Origin: Exiguobacterium sp. J17977
GTDB taxonomy: Bacteria > Bacillota > Bacilli > Exiguobacteriales > Exiguobacteriaceae
Assembly: GCF_018616375.1 (NCBI RefSeq)
Contig: NZ_JAEQBB010000003.1
Coordinates: forward strand, 248,001 to 312,000
Reading direction: 5' to 3'
DNA length: 64,000 nucleotides
A program made the position numbers and the translations under genes. The notes beneath the pieces are model-generated. The model worked only from the letters and a program-made list of their open reading frames with translations, was not told where the DNA came from and searched no databases. Positions 39,978-44,388 of this stretch are shown one piece after another. Position 1 is the stretch's first letter. Each line of letters starts with the position of its first letter.

Positions 39978-40424
39978 TTAGTCCCAATAATGGAAGATGA
40001 CGTTACCAATCGTCTTTGGCTCCCAATATTCGATTTGGTTCCGCTCTGCATCGTTTAATAACGGCTGCAGCGTCACATCGAACCGTTCGTTAAGCTCCAC
40101 CGCCGATGGAGTCTGGTAAGTGTCAGCAAACAAGTCGGTCAGCTCGGGTACATCGATGAATTCATACTGGAACGGTTCGAGCTTCGAGATGCCTATGATC
40201 GGATACACTCTGCTGAGCAGCACATAGATGCTTCGTCCTCGGATGGTGATCGTCGCTTGGTCATAGTTCGGGGTGACCGAGTCCCCGAGGATGATGCTAC
40301 ACGTCCCACCTTTCCGACGGGCGTAATCGAAACAAACCATTTGGAATGTTCGATCATCAAACTCGGGGGTGGGGCAGTCGCCGTATGAAAAACCGGTGAT
40401 GCATGTTGGGAGAATAAGCGTCAT
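39978..40424 (-). CDS. Protein of unknown function, 148 residues
   Basis: A soluble-looking protein starting MTLILPTCITGFSYGDCPTP, with paired cysteines (TCITG, DCPTP, QMVCFDYARRKGGTC) in the first 50 residues and an aromatic C-terminus (IEYWEPKTIGNVIFHYWD). I recognise no domain. The start ATG 40424 has GGGGAGGTG and overlaps the upstream membrane-protein stop as ATGA, so the two are coupled. The cysteines do not form a classic zinc motif. Function unknown. Confidence 0.65.
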   Translation of the reverse strand: MTLILPTCITGFSYGDCPTPEFDDRTFQMVCFDYARRKGGTCSIILGDSVTPNYDQATITIRGRSIYVLLSRVYPIIGISKLEPFQYEFIDVPELTDLFADTYQTPSAVELNERFDVTLQPLLNDAERNQIEYWEPKTIGNVIFHYWD

Positions 40425-40696
40425 GCCGACACCTCCCCGATAATCCAAACCGAAATATTAAACATCGTCACGAACAACATACCGGCGAGCGCGATATAGC
40501 TCCATATGACGCCCGTTCCTGATTTGGCCCGACGTATTCCGTCCGTTACGATAAGCAACATGGCGCCGAATGACAAAAACGACAACGCTGCAAACGAAGT
40601 CGGCCGGTCGAGTGTGGGAAACGTATCAATCACGAAATAGAGTCCGAGTGTGAGTAGGATTAACCCCGTCATAATGAGAAGCGGAAAGAAACGCAT
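40421..40696 (-). CDS. Small membrane protein, 91 residues
   Basis: Three predicted membrane helices (FFPLLIMTGLILLTLGLYFVI, SFAALSFLSFGAMLLIV, VIWSYIALAGMLFVTMFNI). No family is recognised. A GTG at 40705 reads in frame, but ATG 40696 has AAAAGG at usable spacing. It is translationally coupled to the following 148-residue gene, and the pair ends at a strong shared terminator. Confidence 0.6.
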   Translation of the reverse strand: MRFFPLLIMTGLILLTLGLYFVIDTFPTLDRPTSFAALSFLSFGAMLLIVTDGIRRAKSGTGVIWSYIALAGMLFVTMFNISVWIIGEVSA

Positions 40697-40758
40697 AAGA
40701 CACAACCTTTTCCATTTTCTCTCATCGTATCATGCAGGTGGTCGAGCGTATATGTGAA

Positions 40759-41307
40759 TCAGAGCTGCTTCGTCGTGATTTTCACGGGCTCGCCACCGAA
40801 CTTCTCATACGCCTCGTCCATGTTTTTCGTATACAGCTCGATGACGTTTTTGCTCGGGTCTTTAAAGTAGGCCGAACGCTCTTTGCCATTGACCGTCTCG
40901 TCTTCGTCCCACGTCCGGAGTTTCGTCGGGATGTTTGACGCCTCTAACACCTCGAGCGCTTGATCGAACGAGTCCATCGGCACGTAGAACGCGCAGTGGA
41001 CGTGGGCACCGCCCTCATCATAGAGTGTGTCCCACTCGGTCACGTCCTCTTGGCGATTCGATTCTTCTTCCGATGTGAAATCACGTTTCAGCCAGAGACC
41101 AAGACGGGTGTTCCCGCCGACATAGAGCCACGTCGCCCACGGTTCGTCCGCCTGTTCTTGTGCTTCGCTCGGCTCGGCATCGTCACCGACCCATTGTTCG
41201 ACGACGGGGAGTCCGAGTTTGCCGTGCCAAAAGTCGACGGCTGCCTCCATATCGGTCACTTCTAACACGAGTTCACACAAGCCACTAATTGGAATACGTT
41301 TCGTCAT
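40759..41307 (-). CDS. VOC (glyoxalase/bleomycin resistance fold) protein
   Basis: A 182-residue vicinal oxygen chelate protein. One half has ISGLCELVLEVTDMEAAVDFW, with the helix GKLGLPVVEQW; the other has GGAHVHCAFYVPMDSFDQAL and AYFKDPSKNVIELYTK. The H and E positions that usually bind metal (CELVLEV lacks the H; HVHCAF and VIELY keep H and E) are only partly kept. Family members include lyases, dioxygenases and resistance proteins; no specific role can be given. ATG 41307 follows GGAGGG. Monocistronic. Confidence 0.82.
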   Translation of the reverse strand: MTKRIPISGLCELVLEVTDMEAAVDFWHGKLGLPVVEQWVGDDAEPSEAQEQADEPWATWLYVGGNTRLGLWLKRDFTSEEESNRQEDVTEWDTLYDEGGAHVHCAFYVPMDSFDQALEVLEASNIPTKLRTWDEDETVNGKERSAYFKDPSKNVIELYTKNMDEAYEKFGGEPVKITTKQL

Positions 41308-41423
41308 ACATAGTCCCTCCTTCATAGGTTCACTCCGACAGTTCCCGCTTTGATTCGACGAAAAACGTGCATAGCCGTCCGATTGTTCGGGAAATGAGAT
41401 AACAATTGAGAGGGGAGAAGTGT

Positions 41424-42110
41424 ATGCGCTTAATCAGTCTGGTCAGTGTCTTTGTCTTTTTGATTATCGAATGGTTCATGCTCGGTCGTCTGTTTGCCGC
41501 CATCGACGAACGTTTAGCGACGGGCGAATGGACGAATAATCTGTTGTTCCGTGTCGTCGTCGAGTCGGAGCGGGCGACGACTGTCCTGTTACTTTTATTT
41601 GCGACGTTCTTCGTGATTGGTGTCCTTATGCACTGGGTGTTGTCGGCCCAGCGGTCTTGGTCTGTAACGCTCGGGACGGTCGGGGTGGCCTGGGTCGTAC
41701 CGGCCCTGCTCGCGATTGTGGCTTGGTTCATCCCGAATCCATACGTCCAGCTCGTCATCATCGTGTTGCAACTGTCGTTCATCCCGCTCATCCCGTTCGT
41801 CGGACAGACGGTGCGGCTCGGTCATGTCGTGCTCAATTGGGGCGTCCATGTCGTTGCCGCAGGGCTTGTCTTGTTGCTTCAGCGGCCATCGCTCGAGCAA
41901 CTGTTCCGCATCGAACGGACCGAATTGTTCGAGCGGATCGAAGGCTACGTCAATTCGGGCGAACTGGAGCGGTTCGAGCGGTTGCTCGAGAATGTAGACT
42001 TGGAACAGCTGGAACGGATTTTGAACCGAATCGACGTCGATCAACTGATTCGCATCCTCGAACGGGTCGACCTCGACCAACTCGAGCGCATCCTCAACTT
42101 GTTCAGTTAG
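41424..42110 (+). CDS. Membrane protein with C-terminal 12-residue repeats
   Basis: A 228-residue protein of unknown family. Four hydrophobic segments lie within residues 1-150. The cytoplasmic-looking tail repeats a 12-residue unit: FERLLENVDLEQ, LERILNRIDVDQ, LIRILERVDLDQ, LERILNLFS. The period keeps L/I and acidic residues in register. It is preceded by a looser LEQLFRIERTELFERI stretch. The tail should form a helical solenoid or coiled interaction surface. ATG 41424 follows AGGGGAG. It is the last gene of the accessory insert before recD2. Confidence 0.75.
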   Translation: MRLISLVSVFVFLIIEWFMLGRLFAAIDERLATGEWTNNLLFRVVVESERATTVLLLLFATFFVIGVLMHWVLSAQRSWSVTLGTVGVAWVVPALLAIVAWFIPNPYVQLVIIVLQLSFIPLIPFVGQTVRLGHVVLNWGVHVVAAGLVLLLQRPSLEQLFRIERTELFERIEGYVNSGELERFERLLENVDLEQLERILNRIDVDQLIRILERVDLDQLERILNLFS

Positions 42111-42177
42111 GCGATTTGTCCTATCGTTTCAACTCGGGCTATAATGGGGGATGGAAAACTAGCTGGAGGTGGCTCGA

Positions 42178-44388
42178 ATGATGGCAGCACCTTACGAGTT
42201 GACAGGAAAAGTCATCCGCGTCCTGTTTCAATCGGAAGAAGAAGCGCACACGATCGCGCTCGTACGTATAAAAGAAAAGAATTTTGAGACAGACGAGACC
42301 GAGATGGTCATCGCCGGCGTCGGCGTCGGTATTGAGAAAGGCGAGACGTATAAGGCGCACGGCCGGCTCGTCGACCATCCCCGGTTCGGGAAACAGATGA
42401 AAGCAGAGTGGATTCGCCGGGTCGTCCCGATGACGAAGCGCGCCGCCGTCCGCTTTTTGACGAACGGTTCGTTCCCCGGGATCGGCCAAAAGACGGCCCA
42501 GAAGATTGCCGATGCACTCGGAGACGACTGCATCGACCAAATCGTCAAGCATCCGAGCCTTTTGTCAAACGTCGATGGCTTGAAAGAGAAACAAGCCCGC
42601 GTCATCACCGAACGGTTGAACATCTTGTATGGGGTCGACCAGTTGCTCTTATTTTTAGCGCCGTTCGACGTGACGCCGCGCCTCGCCTCAAAGATTCATA
42701 AAGAGTATGAAGGACGGGCGATGGAGACGATTGAAAAAAATCCGTACGCCCTCATGTATGACGTCCCTGGAATCGGCTTCAAGACGGCCGATGCCATCGC
42801 CGCCCACTTCGGGATTCAAGGAATTCACCCGGAGCGGATTGCCGCAGCCGTGTTATACGTCCTTGAGCTCGAGCAAGGCAACGGGCATTTGTTCGTCACG
42901 GCCGACCAACTCGCGAGCGAGATGCCACGCATCATCGGCGGCGATCCGGGCGAGGCACTCGTCTCGGCGCTCGAGACGCTCGCGAATGACGAGCGTGTCA
43001 TCGTCGAAGACGGGGTCGTCTATCATCCGCGGGTGTACCGGGCCGAACAAAAAGCGGCCGAGGAACTCGCGCGCATCATGTCGACCTCGACGACAGAAGA
43101 CGTCGATATGACGACGATTTTCGATGCGGTCGGACGCGTCGAAGAGATGTTCTCAATCGAATATGCGACGCAACAACGGGAAGCGATTGAGCTCGCCTTG
43201 AAGTCGCCGCTCATGGTGCTCACCGGTGGACCGGGGACCGGGAAGACGACCGTCGTCCGCGGCATCATTCACGCGCTCAGCGACGTGTTCGATTGGAAGC
43301 TCGAACCCGTACAGAATCAACCGTTCCCGTTCGTGCTCGCCGCACCGACCGGCCGGGCCGCGAAACGGCTCAGTGAGTCGACGGGGCTGCCGGCCTCGAC
43401 GATTCACCGGTTGCTCAAGTTTGACGGCAGTTCATTCCAAGTCGATGATACGAATCCGCTCGTCGGAAAAGTGCTCATCGTCGACGAGGCGTCGATGATT
43501 GATATCTTCTTGTTCCGGAGTCTGCTCCGGGCCGTGCCGAACGGGATGAAGATTCTGTTCGTCGGGGACCGTGATCAATTGCCTTCGGTCGGACCTGGCC
43601 AAGTGCTCGCCGATTTGATGGCAACCGACGGCATCCCGGTCGTCCGACTCGATGTCGTCCATCGGCAGGCGTCCGAGTCGAGCATTCTGCGCCTGGCGCA
43701 CGCGCTCAACGCGAAACAAATGCCAGACGATTTACTGGCGGCACTGCCGGACCGTCGTTTTTACACGGCCAACCAAGAGACGGCGCTGCAGGCCATCTGC
43801 CAAATGGCAGGGGCCGCGCTCCGGAAAGGCTATTCGCCGTTCGACATCCAAGTGCTCGCTCCGACGTACCGTGGGATTTGCGGCATCGACGGGTTGAACG
43901 AGGCGCTCCAAAACGTGTTCAATCCGAAATCGGCCGCCCGTGAAGTGAAGCACGGCAACCGGACGTATCGAAACGGGGACAAAGTGCTCCAACTCGTCAA
44001 TAACGCCGAGGAGAACGTCTATAACGGTGACATCGGCGAAATCACGAACATCTTTTACGCCAAAGAGAACGTCGATAAGGTCGATAAAATCTATATCCGT
44101 TTCGATCAAACCGAGGTCGAGTATAACCGGAGCGAATGGGACCAGTTCACCCACGCCTATGCCATCACGATTCATAAGTCGCAAGGGTCCGAGTTCCCGA
44201 TCGTGCTCATGCCCGTCTTCTTCAACGGCGGTTTCCGCTCGTCGCGCAACTTGATTTATACGGCTGTCACGCGGGCGAAGAAGAGCTTGCTCTTGTTCGG
44301 GGACGTGCGTGCGCTCGAGGCAGCGACACGGGAAGAGGAACCGGTGCGCCGGACGAAACTCGTCGAACGGCTAGGCGGCAAGTCTTGA
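42178..44388 (+). CDS. recD2: ATP-dependent DNA helicase RecD2
   Basis: A 736-residue SF1B 5'-3' helicase of the RecBC-independent RecD2 type. The N-terminal region has helix-hairpin-helix DNA-binding motifs (FPGIGQKTAQKIAD, VPGIGFKTADAIAAHFG). Walker A TGGPGTGKTTVVRG lies near residue 352, motif II is VDEASMIDIF, and the C-terminus has HAYAITIHKSQGSEFP and YTAVTRAKKSL. RecD2 acts in mismatch repair and fork restart. ATG 42178 has GGAGG 8 bases upstream. The stop overlaps the alaS leader -35. Confidence 0.95.
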   Translation: MMAAPYELTGKVIRVLFQSEEEAHTIALVRIKEKNFETDETEMVIAGVGVGIEKGETYKAHGRLVDHPRFGKQMKAEWIRRVVPMTKRAAVRFLTNGSFPGIGQKTAQKIADALGDDCIDQIVKHPSLLSNVDGLKEKQARVITERLNILYGVDQLLLFLAPFDVTPRLASKIHKEYEGRAMETIEKNPYALMYDVPGIGFKTADAIAAHFGIQGIHPERIAAAVLYVLELEQGNGHLFVTADQLASEMPRIIGGDPGEALVSALETLANDERVIVEDGVVYHPRVYRAEQKAAEELARIMSTSTTEDVDMTTIFDAVGRVEEMFSIEYATQQREAIELALKSPLMVLTGGPGTGKTTVVRGIIHALSDVFDWKLEPVQNQPFPFVLAAPTGRAAKRLSESTGLPASTIHRLLKFDGSSFQVDDTNPLVGKVLIVDEASMIDIFLFRSLLRAVPNGMKILFVGDRDQLPSVGPGQVLADLMATDGIPVVRLDVVHRQASESSILRLAHALNAKQMPDDLLAALPDRRFYTANQETALQAICQMAGAALRKGYSPFDIQVLAPTYRGICGIDGLNEALQNVFNPKSAAREVKHGNRTYRNGDKVLQLVNNAEENVYNGDIGEITNIFYAKENVDKVDKIYIRFDQTEVEYNRSEWDQFTHAYAITIHKSQGSEFPIVLMPVFFNGGFRSSRNLIYTAVTRAKKSLLLFGDVRALEAATREEEPVRRTKLVERLGGKS

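Follow-up and report, generated by a model that had tools for sequence, protein, structure and literature searches.

The DNA considered here is a stretch of 64,000 nucleotides from Exiguobacterium sp. J17977, referred to below as the window. On its forward strand lies a gene for a protein of 228 residues, in which a predicted membrane domain is followed by a linker and by a C-terminal tail of 12-residue repeats (Table 1). The gene, which an earlier note on this DNA had described, is real; its frame begins with an ATG and is closed by a stop codon, and a purine-rich, ribosome-binding-like stretch, gaggggag, can be recognized by eye upstream of the start.

The gene is flanked on the left by a divergent gene, which we take to be VOC/glyoxalase-like, and on the right by a helicase gene that is presumably recD2-like. 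Before the latter stands a promoter-like element, TTGTCC-18-TATAAT, and its TATAAT is found in all 19 orthologous loci. Since the left neighbour runs divergently and the recD2-like gene carries this conserved promoter-like site of its own, the membrane-protein gene appears, on sequence grounds, to form its own transcription unit and not to belong to an operon. Co-function with recD2 is therefore not indicated.

Further to the left, between a TPR gene and the VOC-like gene, an overlapping gene pair is present on the reverse strand (39978-40448 and 40421-40705). Within flanks of about 1.5 kb at the 19 orthologous loci, some of them ended by contig ends, the first of these genes was found in 9 (L001-L008, L011) and the second in 10 (L001-L006 and L008-L011, partial in L009), while in L012-L019 the TPR gene directly adjoins the VOC gene. 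This stretch looks like an accessory-gene spot.

Table 1. Features of the locus, in positions of the window
Feature	Position	Strand	Evidence
Whole gene, 228-aa five-span (predicted) membrane protein with C-terminal repeats	41424..42110	+	ORF (ATG at 41424, stop ends at 42110); 19/19 genus genomes; purifying selection in frame
Membrane domain, residues 1-153, five predicted helices (3-32, 48-73, 79-102, 106-125, 132-152)	41424..41882	+	AlphaFold, hydropathy
Linker, residues 154-179, predicted one long helix 154-178	41883..41960	+	AlphaFold, low confidence
Unit 1, residues 181-192, LERFERLLENVD, most diverged	41964..41999	+	Repeat analysis; AlphaFold helix 180-190
Unit 2, residues 193-204, LEQLERILNRID	42000..42035	+	Repeat analysis; AlphaFold helix 193-202
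Unit 3, residues 205-216, VDQLIRILERVD	42036..42071	+	Repeat analysis; AlphaFold helix 205-214
Unit 4, residues 217-228, LDQLERILNLFS	42072..42107	+	Repeat analysis; AlphaFold helix 217-226
VOC/glyoxalase-like (presumed) divergent neighbour; conserved left flank of the site	40759..41325	-	ORF, locus comparison
Promoter-like TTGTCC-18-TATAAT between the membrane-protein gene and the recD2-like gene	42116..42145	+	Sequence
recD2-like (presumed) helicase gene; conserved right flank of the site	42178..44388	+	ORF, locus comparison

The membrane domain and the repeats

Four membrane spans had been counted earlier; five are now predicted, both by AlphaFold and by hydropathy. The AlphaFold means over 10-residue blocks lie at 83-95 in the membrane domain, but at 59-63 in residues 31-50, and the helix 79-102 is kinked at 90. 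Hydropathy peaks near residues 12, 60, 94, 117 and 143; the window protein shows one further shoulder, at 105, and two orthologues (L010, L013) have exactly five peaks. With five spans, the N terminus and the tail would therefore sit on opposite sides of the membrane. As for the charges near the membrane, the more positive side is that of the tail in 11 of 12 proteins of the subclade to which the window protein belongs, and that of the N terminus in 7 of 7 proteins of the other subclade, a count in which two members without an ATG (L018, L019) have a start chosen by hand.

The 12-residue period of the tail is real. When residues 156-228 are compared with themselves, 23 of 61 positions are identical at lag 12 and 19 identities occur at lag 24, with at most 10 at any other lag from 1 to 24. 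None of 100,000 shuffles reached 23 identities at lag 12, and none of 20,000 did so at the best of lags 5-24. The last 48 residues make up four units, LERFERLLENVD, LEQLERILNRID, VDQLIRILERVD and LDQLERILNLFS. The 'exact' repeat of the earlier note is thus exact in its period; no two units are identical, as pairs of them share 4-8 of their 12 residues. At the DNA level, unit pairs share 18-22 of 36 bases and, summed over the six pairs, different codons are used in 23 of 36 identical-residue codon pairs, in agreement with the remark that the DNA copies differ. This low sharing of bases, together with the differing codons, argues that the array is old and has been held by selection at the protein level. 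The view that the tail is no heptad coiled coil also stands. The seven-residue hydrophobic period was not found in residues 156-228, where lag 7 gives 5 identities vs 23 at lag 12, and the hydrophobic moment of a continuous 48-residue helix would be 0.19 at 100 degrees.

Orthologues, unit number and selection

One orthologue is present in each of the 19 genus genomes examined, the window genome included. Identity to the window protein is 48-93% for the other 18, and 93% for each of the closest named relatives, Exiguobacterium sp. s146 and E. chiriqhucha RW-2. A pattern scan of named genomes, which detects close relatives only, returned four loci, all from Exiguobacterium. In the other 379 of the 398 sampled class genomes, 19 of the sister genus among them, no match was obtained at E 0.001 or less. 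The gene occupies one site in all 19 genus genomes, between the divergent VOC-like gene and the recD2-like gene. In the sister genus, these two flanking genes are directly adjacent in all 19 genomes and the membrane-protein gene is absent; their starts are 104-117 bases apart in 17 genomes and 51 in two, where the VOC gene has no recognizable Met and the edge of the open frame was taken instead. The site being occupied in one branch and empty in the sister genus, the gene must have been gained in one or lost in the other. The Exiguobacterium branch that carries it may be, as we infer from genome sizes, the group II described in the excerpted text of PMC8407118.

The earlier note had pointed to the orthologues as the place where the repeat could fail. 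Tandem units in a fixed register of 12 residues, as in an array with one helix per unit, are kept in 19 of 19. The number of units is not constant; fourteen orthologues have four and five have five (L008-L012), the additional unit being aligned as unit 2. Proteins with five units are not grouped together in a tree of residues 1-179, where most forks are unresolved and three label changes are needed.

Purifying selection acts more strongly on the repeats than on the membrane part. pN/pS was lower in the repeats in 16 of 17 comparisons, drawn from 171 possible pairs, including all 11 that involve the window protein and 5 of the 6 others. These ratios are rough, as pS is often near saturation (0.5-0.9); examples are 0.01 in the repeats vs 0.15 in the membrane part with L004 and 0.26 vs 0.55 with L018, and the one exception, the pair L010-L012, has 0.15 vs 0.14. 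The high silent divergence argues against a constrained antisense frame. With its register kept in the orthologues and its lower pN/pS, the tail is indeed, as had been proposed, old and selected.

Likeness to known families and folds

The earlier note recognized no family, and database searches have come to the same result. Over the 19 orthologues, the best match had an E value of 6e-4 in Pfam (MgtE_N) and 0.009 in NCBIfam, and in the 11 orthologues whose Pfam scores were seen, every match lay under its curated cut-off. The search for the repeat in Firmicutes that had been suggested gave no convincing match beyond the genus among the 398 phylum genomes and 299-398 class genomes sampled, and plasmids and phages held no relative at E 1 or less. 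When the 398 phylum genomes were scanned with the tail profile, a single match fell beyond the genus (G766, E 3.2e-4 for that genome). It is taken as chance; the frame concerned has 97 aa, with two stretches resembling a unit, and is overlapped on the opposite strand by a frame of 240 residues. A scan of 299 class genomes returned 14 genomes beyond the genus at E 0.005-0.1; at six loci from these (L105-L110), with frames read by eye, no multi-span protein with such a tail was seen. At one of them, L110 of an unrelated Bacilli genome, an ERLEQLERPEQ-type repeat frame overlaps a collagen-like Gly-x-Thr repeat frame, a reason for caution when repetitive helical sequences are used as queries. The family scan gave weak matches in the sister genus (best E 0.014), among them MgtE at one locus examined.

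Among known structures, the best matches of the tail profile in a PDB sequence search were designed armadillo proteins (E 4e-4 and 8e-4), in which no individual stretch passes by itself, and after these only E values of 0.018 or more occurred; with the whole-protein profile, nothing better than E 0.04 was found. In Foldseek, the best match of the whole model had an E value of 1.4, and the tail had none at E 10 or less. VIA-align of the whole model reached a Z of 6.7 at best, which is the chance level for helical models, in rows that span residues 1-177 and barely cover the tail. Among the matches listed, the literature held nothing on this protein or its repeat.

Two families were considered for the membrane part. 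Like Yip1 (PF04893), it has several membrane helices, and 3 of 19 orthologues give a weak Yip1 match (best E 0.0015), as does none of 7 reversed or shuffled controls. The highest hmmscan score seen was 17.4 bits vs a cut-off of 28.6, with 14.0 for the membrane part of one orthologue alone. In a genome scan for Yip1, the protein was matched in one of five genus genomes (23.8 bits, E 5.5e-5) and unmatched in the other four, and profile-profile comparison with 13 of 16 Yip1 loci from Bacilli gave 0.3%, at a query Neff of 1.9. With this profile-profile value, kinship with Yip1 was left as an unsupported lead. The membrane domain of MgtE, for its part, has five membrane helices according to the sections consulted of PMC8104411, as is predicted here. 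Homology to it was rejected, there being no Pfam match at E 1 or less to that domain in the 19 members and a profile-profile value of 0.2%.

The tail itself recalls MgtE_N (PF03448), the domain of MgtE, MotE and a related region of FliG. They have in common a hydrophobic rhythm of about 12 residues, short helices, as predicted for the tail, and a tie to membrane machinery; unlike MgtE_N, the repeat tail here is C-terminal, and by Pfam the protein has no CBS domain. MgtE_N forms a superhelix of short helices. It is the best Pfam match of the window protein, at 20.7 bits, or 21.5 for the tail alone, yet both fall below the curated cut-off of 25.9. Matches to it at E 1 or below are found in 12 of 19 orthologues; the remaining seven, which make up the other subclade, give no match of any kind. 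In a scan of the protein's own genome, the tail protein ranks below what we take to be MgtE and a MotE-like protein, and above a presumed FliG. Of eight shuffles that keep only the hydrophobic/polar pattern, however, four match MgtE_N, with a top score of 20.6 bits vs 21.5 for the real tail; the reversed tail scores 13.2. As the match is reproduced in this way, it is no evidence of kinship. Profile-profile comparison, a weak test with a tail profile as thin as this one (Neff 1.5), gave 10.4% with MgtE_N and 10.2% with MotE, against 91.7% for the control pair MgtE_N-MotE, and a CBS domain is not among the Pfam matches of the orthologues. Hence it is very unlikely that the tail is a true MgtE_N-type domain, akin to those of Mg channels and MotE/FliG, which would regulate the membrane part through Mg2+ sensing or docking. 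Such kinship was rejected on the reproduced match, its absence in the other subclade and the want of profile support. The likeness is one of rhythm, though in its working the tail may still resemble a short-helix array of this kind.

Elsewhere in the window genome, a presumably MotE-like protein of 195 aa, with one membrane span and an MgtE_N match at its C terminus, lies about 3.3 kb from a frame that we take to be FliG-like (loci L079 and L089; C2:382484-382666 and C2:386014-386151).

A more general comparison is with the two-helix alpha-solenoids (TPR, HEAT, ARM and PPR), which are also built of tandem helical units and use them for binding. Their units are longer, those of PPR being of 31-36 residues in the available portion of PMC11514114, whereas the units here have 12 residues and one predicted helix.

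A predicted helix in each unit

Helix starts follow known rules, in which an N-cap, a capping box and a hydrophobic staple take part. Positions 1, 4, 7, 8 and 11 are hydrophobic in nearly all of the 81 units of the 19 orthologues, a single Pro occurring at position 8. In a tally of the 62 internal junctions from the unit table, position 12, as the N-cap, is Asp in 57 and Asn in 5. All 62 junctions have V, I or L just before the N-cap (N') and L, I or V four residues beyond it (N4); three residues beyond it (N3) stands Gln in 55 and Arg in 7. This pattern reads as a helix-start signature with all three elements. Replacement of Asp by Asn preserves the cap and removes the charge, which is easier to reconcile with a helix start than with an acidic metal site. 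Taken singly, the units are strongly amphipathic, with hydrophobic moments of 0.67-0.94, to be set against that of the continuous helix given above. In the AlphaFold model of the whole protein, the tail helices are 180-190, 193-202, 205-214 and 217-226, and nearly the same ones (180-189, 193-202, 205-214, 217-226) were obtained for the tail alone. Both models have one helix per unit, with the packing at low confidence (tail pLDDT about 45-60 in both runs; pTM 0.28 for the tail alone), and both were built on the same 19 sequences, of low diversity. The helix boundaries are thus predicted from the sequence and from two agreeing low-confidence models on one alignment. Most likely, each unit is one self-contained amphipathic helix of 10 residues, and the helices would pack on each other.

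The explanation that we favour, with somewhat better than an even chance of being right in structure and mechanism together, is that of a lineage-specific five-span protein whose one-helix-per-unit array serves as a docking or self-association arm. Five membrane spans would be followed by a helical linker of 25 residues and then by four or five units of 12 residues. The start of each unit would be set by the Asp/Asn N-cap, with a D-x-x-Q capping box and a hydrophobic staple; a helix of 10 residues would follow, and then a turn of two. By their hydrophobic faces, the short helices would stack into a compact array, which could act as a rigid arm beside the membrane. The structure is moderately supported; its function as an arm is conjectural, and the array would bind either a partner or another copy of itself.

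Other arrangements of the same residues have to be weighed against this one. The tail is leucine-rich, highly charged and helical throughout in both AlphaFold models, as one long oligomerising helix, in a coiled coil or a bundle, would be. On a straight helix, however, the 12-residue phase gives no common face, as the low moment indicates, an Asp or Asn N-cap recurs at every junction, and both models break there, so that we hold this arrangement to be unlikely. The high moment of each unit and the tethering of the tail to the membrane would also suit short amphipathic helices that lie flat on the lipid surface and are not packed together. Against this stands the charge of residues 154-228 of the window protein, 11 K/R vs 18 D/E; such a net negative tail is unfavourable on the anionic membrane of bacteria, and lipid-bound helices seem improbable as well. 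The low pLDDT of the tail could mean that it is disordered, or that it folds only upon binding. Its strong purifying selection, its fixed register and the helix-start signature at every junction speak against disorder, to which we give only a small chance.

Tentatively, and with considerable doubt, the tail could be regarded as a 12-residue single-helix repeat solenoid that has not been described before and belongs to one Exiguobacterium branch. Whole units would be gained or lost while the N-cap Asp/Asn keeps every helix start, and the tail would then be a minimal natural extendable helical repeat on a membrane anchor. The finding is genuine and well conserved, but narrow: an orphan membrane protein whose repeat tail probably has one helix per unit. 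Without a partner or a phenotype, it raises no larger question. Its interest is that the most conserved part of a lineage-specific membrane protein is a very short, apparently helical repeat. Should the proposed fold of the array be right, nature would have here a one-helix repeat of very small size, and a convenient example of how repeat proteins arise and change in length.
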